Source of the DNA: Mesotoga infera
GTDB lineage: Bacteria; Thermotogota; Thermotogae; Petrotogales; Kosmotogaceae
DNA: 64,000 bases
Direction: 5' to 3'
Assembly (NCBI RefSeq): GCF_900157305.1
Contig: NZ_LS974202.1
Coordinates: 62,001-126,000 of the forward strand
Translations under genes and position numbers: made by a program
The notes under the pieces: model-generated
Databases searched by the model: none
What the model was told of the DNA's origin: nothing
What the model saw: only the letters and a program-made list of their open reading frames with translations
In this document: one piece after another, positions 8,105-34,818 of the stretch
Position numbering within the stretch: the first letter of the stretch is position 1
Layout of the letters: every line of letters begins with the position of its first letter

Positions 8105-9583
8105 ATGCAGGAATACGTTGACTTCACAAGACCTGAATACAAAAAAACCAGAAAACTTGCTATCCTTGAAGGTTCTTTTTACAACATGGCCTTCCTGGTC
8201 ACACAGGGTTTCATTGTTACAGGTCTGGCGCTGGAGTATGGAGTATCGGAGTTCTTGATAGCCATAATCGGAGTATTGCCGACCCTGGCACAGTTGACCC
8301 AGCTGATCTCGCCGATCTTTTTGAGACTCTTCAAAAGCAGAAAAAAATCGATGGTTTTTGCAGCCATTATAGGCAGGGTTCCTCTGGCCTTTATACCGCT
8401 TACTCTGGCGATTGGCATAAAATTTCAATCATTGCTTCTCATAATACTTGCCATGATATCTTTGGGGAACTCGCTCGTTGGAACTTTCTGGGCATCAATA
8501 ATGAGAGATGTGATCGAGCCATCAAGCACGGGAAAATATTATGGTAGAAGGAATCTGATTCTCTCACTTTCTTCGATGCTGATCACCCCTCTCTATTCGC
8601 TCATACTGGACACTTTCGAGGGTGATACTGGATTTATAATAGTGACGGTTATTGCCACCTGTTTTGCCATGATAACCATCCTCCTGTTGATGAATCACTA
8701 TAACCCACCTGTGAGAACATACGGTAGCGGACGCATGTTCAAAGAGGTCTTCTCAAATCTAAAGTTCAGGCAGTATTTGAAGTTCTCTGTTCTTTGGAAC
8801 TTCGCCATAACTGTTTCAGGACCCTTCTATTCTTATCATCAACTGGTTAACCTCAAGGTGAGTTATTCATATCTCAGCGTGCTGAGCATTGTAGCTTCTC
8901 TTACATCGATGATCATGTACATCCTTTGGGGAAAGATCTCCGACCAGATAGGCCACCAGTCTGTAGCCGAATTTGGCATTCTGGGAGCCACTTGTCTTGC
9001 GTTGATGTGGACTTTCGTGACACCCCAATCATATCCTATTCTGCTGCCAGTTGACGCGATAGTTACCGGTGTTGTCTGGAGTGCCATAAACCTCTGCATA
9101 TTTACAATGATGATGGGAATGATGAAGGGATTGTCAGTCGAGCCGTATTTTGCAGTCCAGGCATTTCTCAACGGACTTGGGGCACTTGGAGGGTCGTTGC
9201 TAGGCGGCGTAATAGCCTCTTTCCTGAAGGGAAAGGTAATATATCTGCTGGGTATGGAGTTTCATGGGATTCAGGCTATCTTTCTGTTGGGAAGTATGTT
9301 GAGACTGAGCGCTTTCTTTATGCTGAAAAAGGTTCAGACTCCTAAAATTAAGAGTGTCTCGCAGCTGTTCTTCAACGTCATGTCAACCGTCGGTAGGAGA
9401 ATGGCCACAAGACCTTACGAATATCCTATGCTCTTTATGGGTGCAGGAAGGAAGAAAATCGAAAAAGAGCATCTCCCATTGGACCTTCCCGAGTCTCTTA
9501 AAGAACCGGGAGATGACATATTTATAGAATCTTCGACCGGAGACGATCCCGAGGACAGGAGCGGTCTGGAACCGCACGAGTGA
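8105..9583 (+). CDS. Major facilitator superfamily transporter
   Basis: 492 residues with about 12 hydrophobic segments in two halves. A long cytoplasmic linker lies near the middle, with MFS-like loops such as LFKSRKKSMVFAAIIGR after TM2 and WGKISDQIGHQSVAEFG between later helices. The hydrophilic acidic C-terminal tail (about 70 residues) lies past the last helix. The substrate cannot be read from sequence. The start is placed at the ATG at 8105 with GGGAG five bases before it; the TTG at 8093 would overlap this site. It ends directly against the convergent ABC exporter gene, with no intergenic base. Confidence 0.82.
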   Translation: MQEYVDFTRPEYKKTRKLAILEGSFYNMAFLVTQGFIVTGLALEYGVSEFLIAIIGVLPTLAQLTQLISPIFLRLFKSRKKSMVFAAIIGRVPLAFIPLTLAIGIKFQSLLLIILAMISLGNSLVGTFWASIMRDVIEPSSTGKYYGRRNLILSLSSMLITPLYSLILDTFEGDTGFIIVTVIATCFAMITILLLMNHYNPPVRTYGSGRMFKEVFSNLKFRQYLKFSVLWNFAITVSGPFYSYHQLVNLKVSYSYLSVLSIVASLTSMIMYILWGKISDQIGHQSVAEFGILGATCLALMWTFVTPQSYPILLPVDAIVTGVVWSAINLCIFTMMMGMMKGLSVEPYFAVQAFLNGLGALGGSLLGGVIASFLKGKVIYLLGMEFHGIQAIFLLGSMLRLSAFFMLKKVQTPKIKSVSQLFFNVMSTVGRRMATRPYEYPMLFMGAGRKKIEKEHLPLDLPESLKEPGDDIFIESSTGDDPEDRSGLEPHE

Positions 9584-11527
9584 TCAGGCAGTGTCACCGA
9601 GTTCGTACTGGAGCCTGTACAGGTCGGTGTAGATACCCCCCTTTGAAAGAAGCTCTTCATGGTTACCCGATTCCACGAGTGAGCCCCTATGAATGACCAT
9701 TATCCTGTCGGCGTTTCTGATCGTAGAAAGTCTGTGGGCGATTGTGATCATGGTCTTTTCTGATGATATCCTCTCCATCGCTTTCTGGATGAGCGCTTCG
9801 GTCTCGGTATCCACGTTGGCAGTGGCCTCATCTAGAACCAGTATGTCCGTATCGAAGACCACAGCCCTGGCAAGTGCTATGAGCTGTCTTTCACCAGCTG
9901 AAAGAGTTCCTCCCCTCTCGAGTATCATCGTGTCGTACCCGTCGGAGAGCTTTTCTATGAAGCTGTGAGCATAGACGTACTTGGCCGCTGAAATAACTTT
10001 CTCCCGGGATATAGAATTGTCGAAAAGTCTTATGTTATCTAAAATACTTCCTGAAAACAGAAAAACATCCTGTAACACCACGCCAACTTTTTTTCTCAGA
10101 CCTTGAAGGTTGTAGTCGTATATGTCTTTCCCATCGATTCGTATCACGCCCGATTGTATCCTGTATAACCCTGTCAATATGCTTATTATTGAAGTCTTTC
10201 CGGCTCCGGTCTCTCCGACGAAGGCGATCTTTTCTTTCGGCTTCACGGAGAACGAAATATCTTTCAAGACGTTGTGTTTACCATCATAGGCGAAAGTGAC
10301 TTTCTCGAATTCCACAGAACCTTTGAAACTAGAGGGGAGGGCTTTTTCATGGTGATAGATCTCTTCTTTTTCGTCCATCAATTTGAAGATCTTTTCGGCC
10401 GAGGCCAACGCGTTCTGAACGATATCGTATTTCTCTGCTATATCGTTCAGGGGTCTGAAGAACATATCTATATAAGAGACGAAGGCTACCAGTACACCAA
10501 ACTCGAGTACATTGCCAATTATTCCTTTCACGCCGAACCAAACAACTATGGCTATAGTGATATAGTAAAGCAGATCCAGCAAAGGTCTGAAAATAGCGAA
10601 TACCCAGAGCTGTTCCATTAGACTTTTGAAATAGTTTTTATTTACTCCGTCGAACTCTTCCCTCTTGCGCCTCTCCTGATTGAAGAGCTGAGTGATAGAC
10701 ATTCCGGAAATGTGCTCGGCTAGGAAGGCGTTTATTATGGCCAGCCTAGTTCTGACCTTTCTATATGCGAGCCTGTCGAAATATCTGAAAAGGAAGATGG
10801 CTGCTGCTATCACCGGCAATATTAGCAGTGTAATCAAACCCAGTCTGAAAGAGAGGTTTAGCATGATTATTATGATTCCACCCAAGAGTAGCACGTCCTT
10901 AACTATAGAAGTAATAACGCTAGTAAAGAACTCGGCCATGTTTTCGGTGTCGTTGGCTATTCTGGTGGCCAGCCTACCGCTTGGGTTGGTATCGAAGAAT
11001 CTCATCGGTACTCTGAGAATATGACTGAAGAGATCCACTCTTATGCCATGGGTGATCTTCTGTCCCATGTAAGATGTGGCGAAAACCTGTCCGTAGTTTA
11101 TGAAAAAGAGGGATATAAGTATCATCACCATATAAAGTGCCAGTCGCCCTATCCCGTTCAGATCTTCAACTCGCAGCTCTTGGAGTTGTTGCTGAGTGAT
11201 AGGATATTGCAAAACTCCATCAGTGACGACGTAATCACCACTTTCCGTCTGCTTCAGCGAGAAGGTTCCCTCTTCGGTATCGATGAAGCTAACCGAATCC
11301 CCCTCGTGAATCACAACGAGCGTGTATTCATTGTTCATGTAATCGTCTATCACCATCTTCGACAGAAGAGGTGGGAGAAGATCCAGTCCAGTGGAGGCGC
11401 CGATGAGAACGAGTGCTAGAATAAGTATCGGGAGATAAGGCTTGGTGTATTTCCAGAGCCTGAAGATTACCTTCCAATCTTCGACTTTCAGTTTTTCTTC
11501 CGCTTCGCTATATACATTTTGGGCCAT
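9584..11527 (-). CDS. ABC exporter half-transporter, consensus-site subunit (TM288-like)
   Basis: 647 residues: a six-helix exporter membrane domain fused to an ATPase domain. Walker A is GETGAGKTS, Walker B is ILVLDEATANVD with the catalytic glutamate, and the H-loop is IAHRLSTI. The signature is LSAGERQ rather than LSGGQ. Between TM1 and TM2 (about residues 66-122) there is an extra hydrophilic stretch that would lie outside the cell; relatives such as TM288 are shorter. Together with the upstream gene it should form a heterodimeric drug or lipid exporter. Its ATG follows the partner's stop by two bases, and the ribosome site GGAGG lies inside the partner's last codons, so translation is probably coupled. 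Confidence 0.9.
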   Translation of the reverse strand: MAQNVYSEAEEKLKVEDWKVIFRLWKYTKPYLPILILALVLIGASTGLDLLPPLLSKMVIDDYMNNEYTLVVIHEGDSVSFIDTEEGTFSLKQTESGDYVVTDGVLQYPITQQQLQELRVEDLNGIGRLALYMVMILISLFFINYGQVFATSYMGQKITHGIRVDLFSHILRVPMRFFDTNPSGRLATRIANDTENMAEFFTSVITSIVKDVLLLGGIIIIMLNLSFRLGLITLLILPVIAAAIFLFRYFDRLAYRKVRTRLAIINAFLAEHISGMSITQLFNQERRKREEFDGVNKNYFKSLMEQLWVFAIFRPLLDLLYYITIAIVVWFGVKGIIGNVLEFGVLVAFVSYIDMFFRPLNDIAEKYDIVQNALASAEKIFKLMDEKEEIYHHEKALPSSFKGSVEFEKVTFAYDGKHNVLKDISFSVKPKEKIAFVGETGAGKTSIISILTGLYRIQSGVIRIDGKDIYDYNLQGLRKKVGVVLQDVFLFSGSILDNIRLFDNSISREKVISAAKYVYAHSFIEKLSDGYDTMILERGGTLSAGERQLIALARAVVFDTDILVLDEATANVDTETEALIQKAMERISSEKTMITIAHRLSTIRNADRIMVIHRGSLVESGNHEELLSKGGIYTDLYRLQYELGDTA

Positions 11528-27211: not shown

Positions 27212-27234
27212 AAAAAATTAGAAAGAAATTTTTT
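27212..27234. repeat. Inverted repeat upstream of the RpiR operon
   Basis: AAAAAATT, a 7-base spacer, then AATTTTTT: a perfect 8-bp inverted repeat in an A/T-rich leader, 123 bases before the promoter's -35. It could be an operator for the RpiR protein, but A/T richness makes chance likely. Confidence 0.3.
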
Positions 27235-27333
27235 CTATTTGGTTCGCTGGAATAGCAGATAAGCTTTTTTAGAATAAAAATCAATAAGTAAGTATAAATA
27301 GTCTTAACTGGCCAAAACGAGTGATAAATGGAT

Positions 27334-27362
27334 TTGTGTAGTTCTCATTTTAGTGGTATATT
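27334..27362 (+). promoter_or_regulatory. Sigma70-type promoter of the sugar-acid operon
   Basis: TTGTGT (27334-27339), a 17-base spacer and TATATT (27357-27362), with TGG directly before the -10 (extended -10). The predicted start lies just before GGAGG of the RpiR gene. Confidence 0.55.
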
Positions 27363-27391
27363 ATGGTAGAAATTTTTTTCGGAGGTGAGTC

Positions 27392-28249
27392 TTGACATTC
27401 AACAGCGACCTGCTGGGAAGAATACAGCGCGAAAGCGATGATTTCACTCCAACGATGAAAAGAATTGCTGATGCGATACTCGAAAATCCCTCAGAAGCGG
27501 TGAATCTTTCAATTACTCAACTTATGAACAAGTCACGTGTAGGTAGCGAATCTACGATCGTGAGATTTTACCGGCAGTTGGGTTTCGAAAGTTTTCATGA
27601 ATTCAAAGTGACTATGGCTGCCGAAATCGCAGGTTCCTCTTTTTATCATCCTTACGAAGATATAAGGATCGACGATACACCCGGAGCAGTAGTGAAGAAA
27701 ATCTTCAACGGGTGCATAATGGCGCTTAAAGAAAACATGGAGAAAATATCCAGTCAGGTGATAACCGAAGCCGTTGAACTGATTGAGAAAAGCAGAAGAA
27801 TAATATGCATTGGTTATGGAGTTTCCGGTTCGATAGCCAACAACCTCTCTTTCAAACTCAACCTTCTGGGCAAAGACGCTATTTATTGCCCGGACTCTCA
27901 TACGAACGCGATTACTCTATCAAAGCTCAAGAAAGACGACTGTGTCTTTGCCATCTCACATTCCGGGGAGAGCAAGGATGTAGTCCTTCCCCTTCAAAAG
28001 GTCAGGAACACGGTGCGCATAATTGCGTTGACAGGCTTCATCGATTCAACGCTTGCGAAAATAGCCGATCTCTGTATCGTCACTTCGGTGCCGGAGGAGA
28101 TGAATATAAGAACCGATGCCATAGTTTCTAGATGTTTACAGATGGTAGTTGTGGACTCCCTATTCGCTTGTTTGGCTGTCAGAGAAGGCGAAGAATCGCT
28201 CGATACATTATCTCTATCCAGGAAATCACTATCATACTTGAAATTTTAA
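27392..28249 (+). CDS. RpiR/MurR-family transcriptional regulator
   Basis: 285 residues. The N-terminal HTH_6 domain is about residues 5-80 (LTPTMKRIADAILENPSEAVNLSI-like start, then SEST-IVRFYRQLGF). A SIS sugar-phosphate-binding domain lies about 125-255 (IGYGVSGSIANNL, FAISHSGESKDVV). These regulators sense phosphosugars, often repressing or activating catabolic genes. It is the first gene of an operon with an aldolase, two kinases and a tripartite transporter, so its ligand is probably an intermediate such as a phosphorylated keto-deoxy acid. TTG start with GGAGGTG five bases upstream. Confidence 0.9.
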   Translation: MTFNSDLLGRIQRESDDFTPTMKRIADAILENPSEAVNLSITQLMNKSRVGSESTIVRFYRQLGFESFHEFKVTMAAEIAGSSFYHPYEDIRIDDTPGAVVKKIFNGCIMALKENMEKISSQVITEAVELIEKSRRIICIGYGVSGSIANNLSFKLNLLGKDAIYCPDSHTNAITLSKLKKDDCVFAISHSGESKDVVLPLQKVRNTVRIIALTGFIDSTLAKIADLCIVTSVPEEMNIRTDAIVSRCLQMVVVDSLFACLAVREGEESLDTLSLSRKSLSYLKF

Positions 28250-28268
28250 TTTAACCAGGAGGTGCAAC

Positions 28269-29147
28269 ATGGCTGTTTTCAAAGGAATAATCCCACCGGT
28301 GTTAACAACGTTCGATTCATCGGGAAAAGTTGATGACAAGTGCTATCTAAATCTGATAGATTTTCTCTCTCAGAAGGTACACGGTCTTTTCGTTTGTGGC
28401 ACTTACGGTTCAGGGCCACTCATGTCGGTCGAGGAAAGAAAACACGTGACCGAACTTGCTGTCGAAGGTGCAAAAGGCAGGGTACCTGTAATAGCACATA
28501 TCGGGGGAACCAACCCTGATGACATTTTCGAACTGGCAAAGCATGCAAAAGAAGCGGGAGCTGTGGCCGTGGCGACCGTTGTTCCATTTTACTTTTCCTA
28601 CTCGCAGGCCGATATTATAAGATTCTTCGCAAAGCTAGTAGAAATTTCGAGTCTACCTGTCTTCATCTATAACAATCCCAAAACTACAGGTGTATCAATC
28701 GATATTGACACCCTCAAGAAGCTTCAAGCTGTTGGATTATACGGTATCAAAGACTCATCTTTCGACCTGTTGTATTTCTACTCTGTAAAGCACAACATGG
28801 ATATTGACAAGTTCTGCTACATAACAGGAACAGAAGCATTCATAATGCCGGCTGTTCCGCTGGGAGCCAAAGCAGCTATCTGCGGTCTAGCGAACGCACT
28901 GCCCGAACCGGTAGTCGAACTTTACAACGAAACATCGGCAGGAAACTACGCCAGAGCGTTGGAACTTCAGGTGAAGGTAAACCAATTGAGAGACGTACAA
29001 CACTACGCTCAAAGTATCCCGGCGATTCATGCTATGCTCAAAATGAGAGGCATTAACTCCGGCTACCCGAGAATGCCGTACAGTTTGGTTGACGATTCGA
29101 TCTACACAAAGATGGAAAAGGCACTCATCGATAAAAAGGCGCTCTAG
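28269..29147 (+). CDS. DapA-superfamily aldolase (KDG/KDPG-aldolase-like)
   Basis: 292 residues in a TIM-barrel class I aldolase family. The Schiff-base lysine is Lys161 in YGIKDSS and the catalytic tyrosine is Tyr134 in FIYNNP. After YNNP the sequence is KTTG, so the arginine that lets dihydrodipicolinate synthase bind aspartate semialdehyde is absent. The usual GTTGE motif is GTYGSG. This argues for a pyruvate-releasing sugar-acid aldolase rather than lysine synthesis. Its position between an RpiR regulator and two PfkB kinases supports a 2-keto-3-deoxy acid substrate. The ribosome site AGGAGGTG precedes the ATG. Exact substrate unknown. Confidence 0.85.
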   Translation: MAVFKGIIPPVLTTFDSSGKVDDKCYLNLIDFLSQKVHGLFVCGTYGSGPLMSVEERKHVTELAVEGAKGRVPVIAHIGGTNPDDIFELAKHAKEAGAVAVATVVPFYFSYSQADIIRFFAKLVEISSLPVFIYNNPKTTGVSIDIDTLKKLQAVGLYGIKDSSFDLLYFYSVKHNMDIDKFCYITGTEAFIMPAVPLGAKAAICGLANALPEPVVELYNETSAGNYARALELQVKVNQLRDVQHYAQSIPAIHAMLKMRGINSGYPRMPYSLVDDSIYTKMEKALIDKKAL

Positions 29148-29158
29148 GGGGTGATGCT

Positions 29159-30130
29159 TTGAAAAGAGCTCTCGGCATGGGCGAAATAATGATTCAAATG
29201 AATCCTACGGAAAAGGGAGCTCTCAGATTCCAGACGCTTTTCGAGAGACACGTGGCCGGTTCTGAGGCGAACACAATCATCCAGATGCAGCGTCTGGGAA
29301 TAGAGTGTTCCTTCCTGACATCGGTTGGCAGCGATGAATTTGGTAAGGTGATCCTTTCGACACTGAGATCGGAGGGAGTCAACACCGAGGGTGTGATCGA
29401 AGACGAAAAGAACCCGACCGCCGTTTACTTCGTTCAGAGAAGCTACCCGGTTCCCGAAAAGACTATGGTCTTCTACTACCGAAAAGGCTCGGCCGCGAGT
29501 AACTATGGTCCGCAGTACCTTAAAGACAGCTATTTCGATGGAATAGACCTCTTTCTCGTGAGCGGTATTACACCGGCCTTGAGCGATAGTTGTCGCGATG
29601 CCGCAATAAAAGCGATTGATATGGCTAAAAAGCACGGGGCCCTGGTAGCCTTTGATACAAACATCAGGATAAACCTTCTCAAAACCAAAGAGAACGCTCT
29701 GAAGACTCTTGAACCGTTTATAAGGAAGGCTGATATACTTTTCACCGGAGCTGGCGATTTGAGCATGCTGTTCGACGGTGATCTGGAGAAATCGAAGGAA
29801 TCTATGAAAAAAATGGCCGACGTCGCTAAACTGATAGTATTCAAGAAAGGTTCGGGTGGGGTCGAAGCTTTCACCGGAGGAAAGAGGTATTCGATGCCCT
29901 CCTACAAAGTTCCTGTGATCGACGAACTCGGAGCCGGAGATGCCTGTGACGGAGCCTTCCTTGCGAGTTATCTATCGGGGAAATCAATTGAAGAATCATT
30001 GAAGTATGCCAATGTGGCTGGCGCCATAACAGTGAGTTTGAAAGGCGATATAGAGCCGCTTCCGGATTGGAAGGCTATCGAGACGTTCTTGAACGTCCAT
30101 GAAGCCGGTGAAAAGAAGTTGTTGAGGTGA
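29159..30130 (+). CDS. PfkB-family sugar kinase (2-keto-3-deoxygluconate kinase-like)
   Basis: 323 residues of ribokinase fold. The N-terminus ALGMGEIMIQMNP and HVAGSEANTIIQMQRLG are like KDG kinases. The active site ELGAGDACDGAF near residue 260 holds the catalytic base Asp and the anion hole. It would phosphorylate a keto-deoxy or aldonic sugar at the terminal hydroxyl using ATP. TTG start with GGGGGTG five bases before it. Twelve bases after the aldolase and four bases before a second PfkB kinase: an unusual adjacent kinase pair. Confidence 0.85.
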   Translation: MKRALGMGEIMIQMNPTEKGALRFQTLFERHVAGSEANTIIQMQRLGIECSFLTSVGSDEFGKVILSTLRSEGVNTEGVIEDEKNPTAVYFVQRSYPVPEKTMVFYYRKGSAASNYGPQYLKDSYFDGIDLFLVSGITPALSDSCRDAAIKAIDMAKKHGALVAFDTNIRINLLKTKENALKTLEPFIRKADILFTGAGDLSMLFDGDLEKSKESMKKMADVAKLIVFKKGSGGVEAFTGGKRYSMPSYKVPVIDELGAGDACDGAFLASYLSGKSIEESLKYANVAGAITVSLKGDIEPLPDWKAIETFLNVHEAGEKKLLR

Positions 30131-30134
30131 TTTT

Positions 30135-31082
30135 GTGAGTTGTGAGATTTATTCCTTCGGAGAACCGCTGGCCGGTTTCTATGCAAAGGACCAGCGTAGA
30201 CTTTCGCAGATCGGAGATTTCCACATGACCTGGGGTGGAGACACCTCAAATGTCGCTGTCGCCTCTGCCAGGCTAGGAAGAAGCTCGGGATACATAACGA
30301 GAATAGGAAACGATTCTTTCGGTCATGGATTGATGGAACTCTGGAAAAGCAACGGCGTCGATACGACAAACGTGATAATCGACCAGGAGTACCCGACCGG
30401 AATGTATTTTGTGAGCTTTAACGGTGAAAAGCATGAATTCGACTACCGTCGAAAAGACGCCGCAGCCAGAAAGTTCGGACCGGCCGACGCGGAAAAAATT
30501 TCATTTGAGGGCGTGAAAATCTTTCATCTGAGCGGTATTTCTCAGGCGATTAGTCGTGAATGCCTTGAAGCTAGCTTTGTGCTAATGAAACGCGCTAAAG
30601 CTCTCGGTGCGAAGATCTCTTACGACCTTAACTACCGGGGTAAGCTCTGGTCAACCGAGCTGGCAAAGGCGGTATATATCAAAACCATCACGGACTTTGC
30701 CGACATTGTCTCTTTTAACGAAGAAGAGATGGAAATTCTCTCTCTTCAAGGTTCTCCGGTCGAAGCCGTAATGGAGGTTATGAAAATGGGACCCACGACA
30801 GTGGCCCTTAGAAGAGGTTCTCAGGGAGCGATACTCGGTACGAACGAAGGAATCTTCGAGGGGGAGGCCAAAAAAGTTAGAGTTGCAGATACGGTAGGGG
30901 CCGGAGACGCCTTCACAGCATCACTCCTTTGCTGCAATCTCGAAAACCTGGGAACCCAAGAAGCACTTGAGTTTGCTTTGAGAGCCGCTGCCCTCACCTG
31001 TACTGCAACCGGCTCGACCGAGGGGCAGCCAACCAGGAAACAGATAATGGATTTTTCCGGGGGAAACCCTGTTATCCAATAG
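30135..31082 (+). CDS. Second PfkB-family sugar kinase (KDG kinase-like)
   Basis: 315 residues of ribokinase fold. Substrate-binding motif WGGDTSNVAVASARLG, conserved DLNYRGKLW (typical of KDG kinases), and the catalytic DTVGAGDAFTAS near residue 252. It is clearly different in sequence from the upstream kinase, not a recent tandem copy, so the two may act on different intermediates or epimers. GTG start with GAGGTG nearby, four bases after the preceding stop, indicating tight co-translation. The gene before the transporter. Confidence 0.85.
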   Translation: MSCEIYSFGEPLAGFYAKDQRRLSQIGDFHMTWGGDTSNVAVASARLGRSSGYITRIGNDSFGHGLMELWKSNGVDTTNVIIDQEYPTGMYFVSFNGEKHEFDYRRKDAAARKFGPADAEKISFEGVKIFHLSGISQAISRECLEASFVLMKRAKALGAKISYDLNYRGKLWSTELAKAVYIKTITDFADIVSFNEEEMEILSLQGSPVEAVMEVMKMGPTTVALRRGSQGAILGTNEGIFEGEAKKVRVADTVGAGDAFTASLLCCNLENLGTQEALEFALRAAALTCTATGSTEGQPTRKQIMDFSGGNPVIQ

Positions 31083-31094
31083 GAGGTGTTTTTG

Positions 31095-32051
31095 ATGAAG
31101 AAGATTTTAGTGTTCCTAGTAATTGCTTTGATTGCTTCGTCTCTTTTGTTTAGTGTCGATTATCCAAGAAAGGCCGTGTCGGTAATCTGTCCATGGGGCG
31201 CTGGCGGTGGAACCGACCGAGTTGCGAGATATATTGCAGACGAGTTGAGCAAGGCTCTCGGACAGCCTTTCACGGTTGTCAACAAAACAGGGGGCGGTGG
31301 AGCTGTAGGTCACAGCGCCGGCGTTTATGCAGCTCCTGACGGCTATACCATTACCCTTGTAACTCTGGAGATCGCCAACATGCACTGGCTCGGCCTTACG
31401 ACGATTACTTATGATGACTTCGATTACATTGCTCAGTTCAACGAAGATGCTGCAGGGGTCATAGTTAAGGCCGATGCACCATGGAACACTATCCATGAAC
31501 TTCTGGCAGATATCAAGGCAAATCCTAACAAGTTCTTCTTCTCGGGTTCGAGTGCGGCATCTATCTGGGATCTGGCGAGGATCGGAATGTTCAATGAAGC
31601 GGGAGTTCCTGTGGATTCAGTTACATGGATACCAACAACGGGAGCTGCTCCCTCAATAATAGAACTTCTTGGCGGTCACGTCGATGTTATAACCTGTTCA
31701 ATCGCCGAAGCCGCTTCCCAGCTTGACAGCGGCCAACTCAAAGCCCTGGCAGTTATGTCAGACGAAAGACTCCAGAGGTTCCCCAACGTTCCCACACTGA
31801 AGGAACAGGGAATCAACTGGTCGGCAGGTACATGGAGAGGTATCGCAGTGCCGAAAAATACTCCCGTCGAAGTAAAAGCGATCCTCGAAACAGAGGTACT
31901 TAAAATTGCCAATTCCGATGCTTTCAAAGAATTTATGGATATCAATGGCTTTGGCATCAAGATAAGAAATGGAGCGGAATTCTATGAATTTGCTAAGCAA
32001 CAAGACAGCGCCTGGAAATCCGTGCTCGAACTCGGAGGATTCATTCAGTAA
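31095..32051 (+). CDS. tctC: TctC-type periplasmic substrate-binding protein
   Basis: 318 residues with a signal peptide (MKKILVFLVIALIASSLLFS), then YPRKAVSVICPWGAGGGTDRVARYIA, the family signature. PNKTGGGGAVG-like and DGYTITLVT segments also fit. It captures a carboxylated solute for the tripartite tricarboxylate transporter encoded just downstream. Sugar-acid ligands are plausible from the linked kinases and aldolase. Start at the ATG at 31095, with GGAGGTG six bases before. A hairpin after the stop probably makes this protein more abundant than the membrane parts. Confidence 0.9.
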   Translation: MKKILVFLVIALIASSLLFSVDYPRKAVSVICPWGAGGGTDRVARYIADELSKALGQPFTVVNKTGGGGAVGHSAGVYAAPDGYTITLVTLEIANMHWLGLTTITYDDFDYIAQFNEDAAGVIVKADAPWNTIHELLADIKANPNKFFFSGSSAASIWDLARIGMFNEAGVPVDSVTWIPTTGAAPSIIELLGGHVDVITCSIAEAASQLDSGQLKALAVMSDERLQRFPNVPTLKEQGINWSAGTWRGIAVPKNTPVEVKAILETEVLKIANSDAFKEFMDINGFGIKIRNGAEFYEFAKQQDSAWKSVLELGGFIQ

Positions 32052-32061
32052 TCGTAATTAG

Positions 32062-32090
32062 CGGGTGGCCTAAGGGCTACCCGTTTCTTT
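32062..32090 (+). terminator. Intra-operon hairpin between tctC and tctB (partial terminator)
   Basis: A nine-base stem (CGGGTGGCC with GGCTACCCG, one G-T pair), a 4-base loop TAAG, then TTTCTTT. It sits ten bases after the tctC stop, within the operon. Partial termination or 3'-end protection of tctC mRNA is the likely role. Confidence 0.7.
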
Positions 32091-32109
32091 AATTAATCGG
32101 GGTGATCGG

Positions 32110-32607
32110 ATGAACATTAAAAATATTTTCTTTGGGATTTCGCTTTTAATACTGTCCGGCCTTATCTTTTTTTTCGGCTCGTCCTTCCCGAACTATGTGG
32201 TCCGGGGTAATAAGTTACCCGGACCTAAATTTTTTCCCTTCACGCTGGCTGTAATCATAATCATACTCGGTACATACTACATCATCAAGAGTTTGATTAT
32301 GATAAGGCTAAAAAGGATTCCTAAGGATGCCACTCTTGCCCCTTCTGACAAAATCACTTTAGACGGCACGAAAAATGTGATAGCGATCATCGTGGGAATA
32401 ATTTTCTTCGTACCTCTGATAAACTTGCTTGGCTTCATTCTTGGAGCCACGATCGTATCTGCAGCTTTGATGATAATTCTAAACGTCAAGATCTGGCGTT
32501 CTTTAGTATATTCGGTGATTCTGGTGGTCATTATTTTCTTGATATTCGGCATGGTTTTCAAGGTTCCGCTCCCGGAGGGAATCGTTATGGCCATGTTCCA
32601 GAGGTGA
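32110..32607 (+). CDS. tctB: TctB-family small membrane subunit
   Basis: 165 residues with four hydrophobic segments in the arrangement of TctB (FFGISLLILSGLIFFFG, then FPFTLAVIIIILGTYYI and two C-terminal helices ending PLPEGI). It pairs with TctA in the membrane as the small subunit. ATG with GGGGTGATCGG before it; tctA begins four bases after its stop. Confidence 0.85.
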   Translation: MNIKNIFFGISLLILSGLIFFFGSSFPNYVVRGNKLPGPKFFPFTLAVIIIILGTYYIIKSLIMIRLKRIPKDATLAPSDKITLDGTKNVIAIIVGIIFFVPLINLLGFILGATIVSAALMIILNVKIWRSLVYSVILVVIIFLIFGMVFKVPLPEGIVMAMFQR

Positions 32608-32611
32608 TCGT

Positions 32612-34102
32612 ATGGATACTATTCTCTCTATCTTAAGCCCGGATGTTATATTCCCCGTACTTTTCGCTATGACTTTTGGCATTTTCGTCGGCGGATTGCC
32701 AGGTCTTACAGCTACCATGGCGGTCGCTTTGATAATCCCCATCAGTTATTACATGAGTCCTATGGCTGGTCTGGGAATGGTACTGGGGGTTTCTTTCACA
32801 GCAATCTTCTCCGGCGATATCCCCGCGACTTTTCTCAGGATTCCGGGAACTCCAGCCTCTGGAGCGGCCACTTTAGATGGTTTCGAACTGGCGAAGAAGG
32901 GGAAAGGCTCGCTGGCGCTGACTCTGGATCTCTTCTGTTCGGCGATCGGTGGGTTGATCGGAATACTTTTACTCATATTAATCGCACCGCCTCTGGCCAA
33001 TTTCGCGCTTCAGTTCACCAATTTCGAATACTTCTGGCTCGGGCTTTTTGGATTGAGCATGAGTGCCGTTTTAAGCAAGGGAAACATGATAAAAGGACTC
33101 ACATCGGCCGTTCTGGGACTGGCAATATCTACAATCGGTATAGATATAACCACCGGATATCCGCGTTTCACTTTTGGAAATATAGAACTCATGGATGGCA
33201 TAGGTTTTATTCCTGCAATGATCGGACTCTTTGGAATCTCCGAAGTTCTAAAGAGAGTCCAGCAGGGAGCTACAAGACTGCAGCTTCCTCCCATAACAGA
33301 AAAAGTCAAGATCTCACCGTTAGAAGCGCTGAAGATAATATGGAAAGAAAAGATAACCCTCATAAAATCAGCCTTCGTGGGGACTTTCATAGGCGCACTT
33401 CCAGGCGCCGGTGCAGATATTGCAGCCTGGGTTGCTTATGGTGTGGAGAAGAAAACCTCAAAAAACAGCGAAGATTTCGGTACGGGTAACATAAAAGGGG
33501 TTATCGCTCCCACGAGCGCCAACAATGCCGCACTTGGTGGTACCTGGATTCCTGCACTGGTCTTCGGTGTTCCGGGCGATACCATAACCGCCATCGTACT
33601 CGGTGCCATGCTTATGTACGGATTGAAACCAGGACCGTTGATATTCAAGGAATCGAGAGAACTCGTGAATGGAGTCTTCGGAATCGCAGTTCTTGCAAAT
33701 ATACTCATGATACCTATAGGTTATCTAGGAATAAAGGCCTTCGCGCAAGTTTTAAAACTAAAAACCAGTGTAGTTCTCACGGGAGTAGTTCTCTTCTCGA
33801 TGATAGGGTCTTATGCTATCAGGAACAGCTATTTCGATATCTACGTGATGCTCGCTTTCGGATTCATCGGCTACATAATGGAAAGGCTTGCAGTGCCACT
33901 GGCTCCAATGATACTGGGGATCATACTGGGTCCTATGGTCGAAGATAATCTCAGGGTAGGGCTAATAAAGACCGGTGGAAGCATGAATCAGTTCTTCACC
34001 AGACCTATCTCCCTGGTGCTGTTCCTGTTGATCTTGCTGGTCTTCTTCGGTGGACCGACGGTCGGGTTACTCAAAAAAGTCTTCAAAAGTAAGAAGTCAT
34101 AA
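32612..34102 (+). CDS. tctA: TctA-family large permease subunit
   Basis: 496 residues with about 12 membrane segments. Family motifs: FVGGLPGLTATMAVALIIP, IPGTPASGAATLDGFELAKKGKG, and a repeated half IGALPGAGADIAAWVAYG ... PTSANNAALGGTWIPALVFGVPGDTITA. It is the ion-driven carrier of the tripartite tricarboxylate transporter. The gene ends the sugar-acid operon and is followed by a strong terminator. The substrate is not readable from sequence. Confidence 0.92.
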   Translation: MDTILSILSPDVIFPVLFAMTFGIFVGGLPGLTATMAVALIIPISYYMSPMAGLGMVLGVSFTAIFSGDIPATFLRIPGTPASGAATLDGFELAKKGKGSLALTLDLFCSAIGGLIGILLLILIAPPLANFALQFTNFEYFWLGLFGLSMSAVLSKGNMIKGLTSAVLGLAISTIGIDITTGYPRFTFGNIELMDGIGFIPAMIGLFGISEVLKRVQQGATRLQLPPITEKVKISPLEALKIIWKEKITLIKSAFVGTFIGALPGAGADIAAWVAYGVEKKTSKNSEDFGTGNIKGVIAPTSANNAALGGTWIPALVFGVPGDTITAIVLGAMLMYGLKPGPLIFKESRELVNGVFGIAVLANILMIPIGYLGIKAFAQVLKLKTSVVLTGVVLFSMIGSYAIRNSYFDIYVMLAFGFIGYIMERLAVPLAPMILGIILGPMVEDNLRVGLIKTGGSMNQFFTRPISLVLFLLILLVFFGGPTVGLLKKVFKSKKS

Positions 34103-34126: not shown

Positions 34127-34163
34127 AAAAAGAACCGATTGCACTAAATCGGTTCTTTTTTTA
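34127..34163 (+). terminator. Rho-independent terminator of the sugar-acid operon
   Basis: A 14-base inverted repeat (AAAAAGAACCGATT with AATCGGTTCTTTTT) around a 6-base loop, ending in a T run. It is symmetric enough to act on both strands. Confidence 0.92.
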
Positions 34164-34261: not shown

Positions 34262-34818
34262 GGTTCTTCTCCCGTCATCCAGTTCAGCCACAACTATCTT
34301 GAGAGGAACTCTAACAGACTTGAAGCGGACAACTCTCTGGTGGAATCTGATGGTTCTATTGTCAACATCAACAGTAAAATAAGAAAGACTTCTCCCGAAC
34401 CAACGCTTAGAAGAGGAATGTTGATCTCGCTTCTGAACAAAGACATCTCGAAATTCAAAGAGGCAGATCAGAAGAAGATGAAAGAGTATATAGAAGCCAA
34501 CGGTAACTTACAGAACCTGTACCCGGCTGTGAACAGGTTCAGAGAAATATTGAAGGGCAAAGATGAATCGAGACTTGAGGACTGGCTCTCAGAAGTAAAG
34601 AGATACAACATCCGCGAGCTGAACACTTTCATCATGTCGGTAGAGAGAGACATTGAAGCGGTGAAGAATGCGATAAGAACCGGGTTCAGCAACGGAATCA
34701 TAGAAGGCGTTATAAACAAGATAAAGGTGATCAAGCGGATAATGTACGGCAGATGTTCCTTTGAACTTCTGAGATTGAAGGCCATTATGAGCTAGTTCAT
34801 AGATTGTGAGGAAGAACC
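34262..34818 (+). mobile_element. Remnant of an ISL3-family insertion sequence
   Basis: About 557 bp bounded by inward-facing GGTTCTTC (34262-34269) and its complement GAAGAACC (34811-34818), a plausible pair of terminal repeats. It contains only the C-terminal end of a transposase. Complete ISL3 elements are roughly 1.2-1.6 kb, so most of the element is lost. No target duplication is visible in the flanks, so the exact ends are uncertain. Confidence 0.5.
34340..34795 (+). pseudogene. C-terminal fragment of an ISL3-family transposase
   Basis: 151 residues from a GTG. The segment RLEDWLSEVKRYNIREL, followed by SNGIIEGVINKIKVIKR and IMYGRCSFELLRL, matches the C-terminus of ISL3 DDE transposases, including the catalytic glutamate in IIEG. 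The N-terminal zinc finger, HTH and both aspartates are missing. The open frame extends back to about 34250 without recognisable transposase sequence. It is a decaying fragment, unlikely to be active. Confidence 0.75.

Follow-up and report, generated by a model that had tools for sequence, protein, structure and literature searches.

A seven-gene operon of Mesotoga infera, predicted to scavenge 2-keto-3-deoxygluconate (KDG) from the surroundings under control of an RpiR-type regulator, was identified in a window of 64,000 nucleotides (positions 62001-126000 of contig C1, NZ_LS974202.1, of the single-contig 2.97 Mb genome G000). KDG arises in the breakdown of uronic acids from plants or algae. 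The imported acid may possibly be the C4 epimer, 2-keto-3-deoxygalactonate (KDGal). The probability of this reading is put at about 0.5. In the proposed mechanism, the binding protein TctC of a tripartite tricarboxylate transporter (TTT) would capture KDG outside the membrane and TctAB would carry it inward. Kinase A would convert KDG to 2-keto-3-deoxy-6-phosphogluconate (KDPG), a step for which homology and context give good support. The aldolase step is also supported, and would cleave KDPG or KDG to pyruvate and glyceraldehyde 3-phosphate or glyceraldehyde. RpiR would repress the operon through two upstream palindromes and be released by KDPG. Kinase B is seen as an additional kinase for some sugar acid which the operon can do without, and a stem-loop between tctC and tctB probably raises the level of the binding protein over that of the membrane subunits. 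The kinase and aldolase steps rest on homology and gene context; the identity of the imported molecule is what we infer.

Gene content and displacement in related genomes

Seven intact open reading frames were found, all on the + strand, with intergenic gaps of 19, 11, 4, 12, 58 and 4 bases. All seven proteins matched Pfam families far above cut-off (HTH_6 with SIS, DHDPS, PfkB, PfkB, TctC, TctB and TctA, in gene order). The genes are as follows.

27392..28249, +, rpiR, MurR/RpiR-family regulator (HTH_6 + SIS; PF01418, PF01380)
28269..29147, +, aldolase of the dihydrodipicolinate synthase (DHDPS) family, predicted KDG/KDPG aldolase (PF00701)
29159..30130, +, kinase A, PfkB kinase, predicted KDG kinase of the Sulfolobus type (similarity, tree)
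30135..31082, +, kinase B, second PfkB kinase with a KDG-kinase fold (PF00294)
31095..32051, +, tctC, TTT solute-binding protein with signal peptide (PF03401)
32110..32607, +, tctB, TTT small membrane subunit (PF07331)
32612..34102, +, tctA, TTT large membrane subunit (PF01970)

The start of tctC is most likely the ATG at 31095 rather than the GTG at 31086. Reading frames and families agree with an earlier interpretation made from the letters alone (the sequence-only reading), which had described seven genes on one strand with short gaps and had proposed a search for the same order elsewhere. The order was found to recur in other genera and families, and the arrangement is therefore not due to chance. 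In the compared genomes (G-numbers; f2, f3, f8 and f9 are family-level groups of the set) it is present, complete or cut by a contig end, in the genus (G000, G002, G003, G005, G006, G007 and G009), in the same family beyond the genus (G011, G013, G014 and G016) and in G043/G044 of f8. The f9 genomes G081 and G084 have the order rpiR-aldolase-kinA-tctCBA-cupin, from which kinase B is absent. No copy was found in G001, G010, G012 and G015. A decayed copy is present in G004 (C5:102000-121900, locus about 8461-10963), with an intact rpiR, a truncated tctA and an aldolase gene with internal stops; the kinases, tctC and tctB were not recognised in this remnant. Because of the decayed copy and the four genomes with none, the operon is considered accessory.

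The strongest evidence for the pathway is found in f2. The f2 locus is bounded by uxaC (glucuronate isomerase), a ROK regulator and uxaE (tagaturonate epimerase, PF16257, 436 bits) at its start, and by an IclR regulator at its end. The slot between them is occupied in G019 by an Eda-type KDPG aldolase (kdgA) and kdgK, in G029 by a DHDPS-type aldolase (38% identical to that of the window), kdgK, tctCBA and a cupin, in G018 by a DHDPS-type aldolase, tctCBA and kdgK, and in G027 by the window-type aldolase, kinase A, kinase B, tctCBA and a cupin. Since the aldolase and kinase A, with or without kinase B, stand in the slot of kdgA and kdgK, they probably turn KDG into pyruvate and triose phosphate. 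The sequence of import, phosphorylation and cleavage to pyruvate plus an aldehyde phosphate, proposed from the letters alone, is well supported by the protein families and by the displaced genes in relatives. G027 and G029 have no UxuA, and the step from fructuronate or tagaturonate to KDG is not obvious there. A GH4 gene in f2 was considered as a galacturonidase, but its NCBIfam assignment is AglA alpha-glucosidase and it was not used as evidence.

A cupin gene of about 120 codons lies 3' of tctA in G011, G013, G027, G029, G081 and G084, and cupin homologues are located on other contigs in G014 and G016. Two of the three copies tested were weakly similar to DUF386/YhcH, below cut-off. YhcH is a sialic-acid anomerase which feeds the open-chain substrate to NanA, an aldolase of the same fold (PMC8141875), and by analogy ring-opening of KDG would be a natural guess for the cupin. 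A relative of the operon-type cupin is also found elsewhere in the Mesotoga genome (G000:C1:2601000-2611000), together with an Eda-type aldolase for KDPG or 2-keto-4-hydroxyglutarate (KHG) and a ROK protein, between genes of glycoside hydrolase families GH38 and GH42. This locus is regarded as a second route into the same chemistry.

The two kinases and the aldolase

The best solved relatives of kinase A are the KDG kinases of S. tokodaii (1WYE/2DCN, 218 bits) and S. solfataricus (2V78/2VAR, 214 bits). In a maximum-likelihood tree the kinase A clade, including the copy of G042, is sister to the Sulfolobus KDG kinases (1WYE/2V78) with support 97/82, and the motif YPVPxKxxxxYYRKGSA is common to kinase A and 1WYE. 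The orthologue in G042 adjoins a gene for KduD (388.7 bits, curated cut-off 338.85), the enzyme whose product is KDG. By its sequence, kinase A can convincingly be assigned to the KDG-kinase type. Kinase B forms a clade of its own and scores 174 bits against the KDG_KDGal_kin model. Its AlphaFold model (predicted local distance difference test score, pLDDT, 91) has the KDG kinases 2DCN and 1V19 as closest folds. It keeps the GAGD catalytic motif and most KDG-kinase contact residues, and carries a serine near the C terminus where KDG kinases carry an aspartate. Kinase B diverges faster, with 62% identity between G000 and G009 compared to 80% for kinase A, and it is dispensable, since the operons of G081 and G084 do without it. 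The earlier suggestion that both kinases look like KDG kinases is therefore retained for kinase A, and for kinase B only loosely and not with confidence.

In 13 relatives the aldolase shows no variation at the Schiff-base lysine, Lys161, or at the catalytic tyrosine, Tyr134. The arginine typical of DHDPS enzymes is lacking, as had been noticed before; the position of E. coli Arg138 is Thr139. A role as DapA in lysine synthesis was rejected on this ground and because a separate DapA-like gene is present elsewhere in G000, in an apparent lysine gene cluster. TIGR00674 gave 154 of the 206 bits of its cut-off. The AlphaFold model of the aldolase (pLDDT 94.2) has YagE as its closest fold. For comparison with the Sulfolobus aldolase, a reference was used of which residues 101-293 were confirmed against 1W3I. 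Arg106, Tyr132, Arg237 and Ser241 are the residues which we take to bind phosphate in the archaeal enzyme. Arg106 and Tyr132 were without counterpart, Thr157 corresponded to Ser/Thr, Ser241 to Ser, and Arg237 to His, or to Lys in the f2 variants. A complete loss of the phosphate site, which a first manual comparison had indicated, was dismissed when the alignment gave a partial match. Tyr130, Tyr132, Thr157 and Thr44 contact the hydroxyls of KDG (PMC9486944).

A contig scan with the aldolase as query returned four loci only. A 49%-identical aldolase was observed in a Bipolaricaulota contig (JAHITR010000012.1), between aldehyde-ferredoxin-oxidoreductase-like and D-hydroxyacid-dehydrogenase-like genes and with a glycyl-radical enzyme nearby. 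This locus is a different pathway with an aldolase of the same clade.

The transporter and its predicted ligand

Adjacent matches to PF03401 (171.6 bits), PF07331 (66.6 bits) and PF01970 (472 bits), all above cut-off, identify the three last genes as a TTT. Its constant partner over five family-level groups is an aldolase which ends the KDG pathway. In f3, TctC orthologues about 70% identical (69-71%) occur in G038, G058, G059, G060, G063 and G064. In all six genomes an Eda-like KDPG/KHG aldolase gene lies directly 5' of tctC, mostly touching or overlapping it, and no pathway gene other than the aldolase is present in these operons. The family of the aldolase was checked for the copy of G038 (254.8 bits, cut-off 238).

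The closest solved relative of TctC is 25HK (219 bits, 43% identity), the TTT-C protein of Vibrio sp. C42; its ligands are unsaturated alginate oligosaccharides, and citrate, glucuronate and malate are not bound (PMC13390454). Mutation of 25HK has identified eleven residues on which oligosaccharide binding depends (PMC13390454). Six of the eleven are identical in TctC, including Gly24, Thr25, Asp26, Thr225 and Arg227. The changes are Phe19 to Trp, Pro104 to Ala (in this genus), Ser164 to Ala, Glu165 to Pro and Gly183 to Ala. From these residues the ligand of TctC is plausibly uronate-derived as a class, though the pocket is not identical to that of 25HK.

A search of the complete genome G000 found no UxaC, UxuA, IlvD/Edd, KduI or GH88/105 and no KduD above the cut-off. 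Two enzymes by which an isomerase-type hexuronate pathway is recognised, UxaC and UxuA, are thus both absent. In G011, a single contig with the operon, no UxaC, UxuA, UxaA-type dehydratase or IlvD was found, and no KduD over the cut-off. With nearly all of the known KDG-forming enzymes searched for absent from G000, the data are most simply explained by uptake of KDG as such. Two options had been left by the sequence-only reading, a solute that is already a keto-deoxy acid or a dehydratase encoded elsewhere; the former is now favoured and the latter disfavoured, and the "aldonic or uronic-type acid" proposed there is narrowed to a 2-keto-3-deoxy acid, probably KDG. An MR_MLE-type dehydratase candidate at 420951 was rejected as an L-Ala-D/L-Glu epimerase (531.8 bits, cut-off 500). 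A weaker MR_MLE match, a frame of 435 codons recurring in nearly all relatives, is presumably enolase.

In G002 (C137) and G007 (C386), a gene for an IlvD/Edd-type dehydratase is clustered separately with genes for an aldolase of the DHDPS type (about 40% identical to that of the window), a short-chain dehydrogenase/reductase and a sugar ABC transporter. This cluster is probably a non-phosphorylative aldonate pathway.

Operator-like palindromes, candidate promoter and stem-loops

The following elements were found around and within the operon.

27223..27237, +, operator-like palindrome O1, AAGAAATTTTTTCTA, 14/15 match to TAGAAATTTTTTCTA
27334..27362, +, candidate promoter TTGTGT-N17-TATATT, read from sequence
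27367..27381, +, operator-like palindrome O2, TAGAAATTTTTTTCG, 12/15 match, overlapping the predicted transcription start
32060..32085, +, intercistronic stem-loop tctC-tctB, 11-bp stem
34127..34160, +, intrinsic terminator, 14-bp stem followed by a T-rich tract

O1 and O2 are 144 bp apart in the window. At two mismatches a scan of the window returned O1 only, with 0.4 matches expected by chance; single palindromes therefore carry little weight, and the weight lies in the pair and its conservation. Both sites match in at least 12 of 15 positions in all eight same-genus copies, with a spacing of 142-144 bp in seven and 152 bp in G004, where 0.03-0.09 site matches are expected per shuffled region. 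O1 is kept in these eight copies and in G011 and G013 while the spacer DNA has diverged, and O2 is a 15/15 match in G002, G004, G005, G006 and G009. Similar pairs were found in G013 and G011 (second site of G011, 11/15), but not upstream of the operon copy in G084. The paired palindromes suggest repression with looping by RpiR. HexR is among the best NCBIfam models of the RpiR protein, at 133 bits and below its cut-off of 296, and the protein is by sequence only a relative of HexR within the MurR/RpiR family. HexR and RccR of this family respond to KDPG (PMC5489143), and by analogy KDPG may be the effector of the predicted repressor.

One promoter and one terminator had been proposed for the operon. 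The terminator was confirmed, but a second strong stem-loop lies between tctC and tctB, and a strict consensus promoter scan gave no match upstream of rpiR. The TTG and T-rich -10 columns of the candidate promoter are aligned in relatives. A strong hairpin of unrelated sequence directly follows the tctC stop codon in every family examined, with the exception of G018. Because the structure is kept while the sequence changes, a function is indicated for the hairpin, which probably results in more TctC than TctAB. No Rfam family was found in a scan of the window. Directly 3' of the terminator lies a remnant of an ISL3-family transposase (PF01610, 66.9 bits; 34340-34795, +).

Alternative explanations

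Several points weigh against uptake of KDG by this operon. The best NCBIfam models fall below their cut-offs, both for kinase A (KDG_KDGal_kin, by far the best, 298 bits, cut-off 400) and for the aldolase (Arch_KDGaldase, 162.5 bits, cut-off 390). Phosphate binding by the aldolase is uncertain given the lost counterparts of Arg106 and Tyr132. The KDG pathway leaves kinase B unexplained; a second epimer, a C3 acceptor and a role as partner subunit are candidates. For TctC, KDG is a predicted ligand, and the habitat is assumed to supply KDG outside the cell. KduI is present in G011. A galactarate/altronate-dehydratase-like (UxaA-type) gene lies at 1611093 (about 1.61 Mb) in G000 (204 bits, cut-off 731), the only candidate dehydratase there among the families searched. 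It is located in G000:C1:1601500-1621400 (locus positions 9576-10754), and its neighbours were read as homocitrate-synthase-like, butyrate-kinase-like, malate/lactate-dehydrogenase-like and GntR-like genes. The gene was rejected as the missing dehydratase, since these are not recognisable sugar-acid genes and its occurrence does not track the operon: G011, G014 and G016 carry the operon but no gene of this family, and G001 carries such a gene but no operon.

It is distinctly unlikely that TctCBA imports a hexuronate or aldonate from which an isomerase or dehydratase encoded elsewhere yields KDG. This explanation could account for the UxaA-type gene and for the same transporter within the f2 uxaC-uxaE loci, but no UxaC, UxuA or IlvD/Edd occurs in any operon-bearing genome of the same family, apart from IlvD in G002 and G007, where it accompanies another aldolase, and the UxaA-type gene, as noted, does not track the operon. 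Import, as in Vibrio sp. C42, of unsaturated uronate oligosaccharides or of 4-deoxy-L-erythro-5-hexoseulose uronate (DEH), with enzymes encoded elsewhere making KDG, is a slightly better candidate, though still unlikely. The resemblance of TctC to 25HK, with five named ligand residues kept and an aromatic residue at Phe19, is in its favour, and the Vibrio locus also holds kdgK and eda (PMC13390454). Against this, four pocket residues differ (Ser164, Glu165, Gly183 and, within the genus, Pro104), and the enzymes KduI and GH88/105, and KduD over cut-off, are lacking in G000. Furthermore, neither the window nor the loci read in relatives showed a recognisable lyase, KdgF or DehR gene near the operon; for PL15/PL17 lyases and DehR-type reductases the search did not extend to the whole genome.

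It is improbable that the substrate is a different 3-deoxy-2-ketoacid (KDGal derived from galactonate or from agar sugars, 3-deoxy-D-manno-octulosonate or another ulosonic acid), with two kinases for two epimers. The NCBIfam model treats Sulfolobus-type kinases as bifunctional for KDG and KDGal, YagE is a probable KDGal aldolase, and a kinase A relative in G099 is near a galactonate dehydratase; the KDG series, however, is indicated by the KduD gene next to kinase A in G042 and by the uxaE locus, at which kdgA-kdgK are displaced, and kinase B is missing in G081/G084. Cleavage of unphosphorylated KDG, with kinase B acting on glyceraldehyde or glycerate, would fit the lost Arg106/Tyr132 counterparts and the Bipolaricaulota aldolase beside its oxidoreductase-like and dehydrogenase-like genes. 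It is nevertheless very improbable: kinase A would have no purpose, the second half of the phosphate site is represented by the conserved Ser241 and by His/Lys at Arg237, and kinase B retains the KDG-kinase fold and most contact residues. A conventional citrate (tricarboxylate) importer beside unrelated sugar genes has the name of the transporter family in its favour only, and is barely credible for a transporter which accompanies a KDG/KDPG aldolase in five family-level groups.

Significance and comparison with known systems

Although TTT importers are common, substrates are known for few of them and are mostly small carboxylates. The company of this transporter is consistent across several Thermotogota families, and one testable ligand can therefore be named. 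The operon had been called an undescribed module, and no homologous operon was found in the literature searched; a TTT importer for uronate oligosaccharides was, however, published in June 2026 (PMC13390454), so that TTT uptake in this area of metabolism is already partly described. Novelty lies in the ligand predicted for a TTT and in a gene set that is reduced and scavenger-like. If KDG is indeed the ligand, the TTT family gains a sugar-acid branch and KdgT is joined by another kind of KDG importer; KDG would then seem to be traded as a nutrient within anaerobic communities. The wider proposal, a TTT dedicated to KDG in bacteria which cannot make KDG themselves and scavenge it from pectin or alginate degraders, is more tentative and is put at somewhat less than even odds.

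In enterobacteria KDG is taken up through the kdgT-kdgK-kdgA/eda system under KdgR. This system resembles the operon in its importer, KDG kinase, KDPG aldolase and single local regulator, and in the import of KDG as such, but its importer KdgT consists of one permease protein, its aldolase is Eda-type and its regulator IclR-type. The Sulfolobus KDG kinases (2V78/2VAR, 1WYE/2DCN) form the sister group of kinase A, and the Sulfolobus KDG aldolase (1W37) shares fold, lysine and tyrosine with the window aldolase; the Sulfolobus enzymes serve a branched Entner-Doudoroff pathway, however, and two archaeal phosphate/hydroxyl contacts are not kept here. E. coli YagE is the closest structural neighbour of the aldolase model, yet is only 29% identical and belongs to a different operon. 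Within the Thermotogota, the Thermotoga UxaR regulon kdgA-kdgK-uxuB-uxuA has the KDG kinase and KDPG aldolase step, but includes fructuronate reductase, mannonate dehydratase (UxuA, absent from G000) and a GntR regulator, and the text searched mentions no TTT (PMC3750489). Among the closest known systems is the alginate locus of Vibrio sp. C42, with a TTT, a KDG kinase and a KDPG aldolase, and with a TctC of 43% identity and partly shared pocket (PMC13390454). That locus has alginate lyases, a porin, KdgF, DehR, an Eda-type aldolase, GntR regulators and an oligosaccharide-binding TTT-C of its own, whereas the Mesotoga operon consists only of kinases, a DHDPS-fold aldolase, a TTT and RpiR, and four of the eleven pocket residues differ outright.

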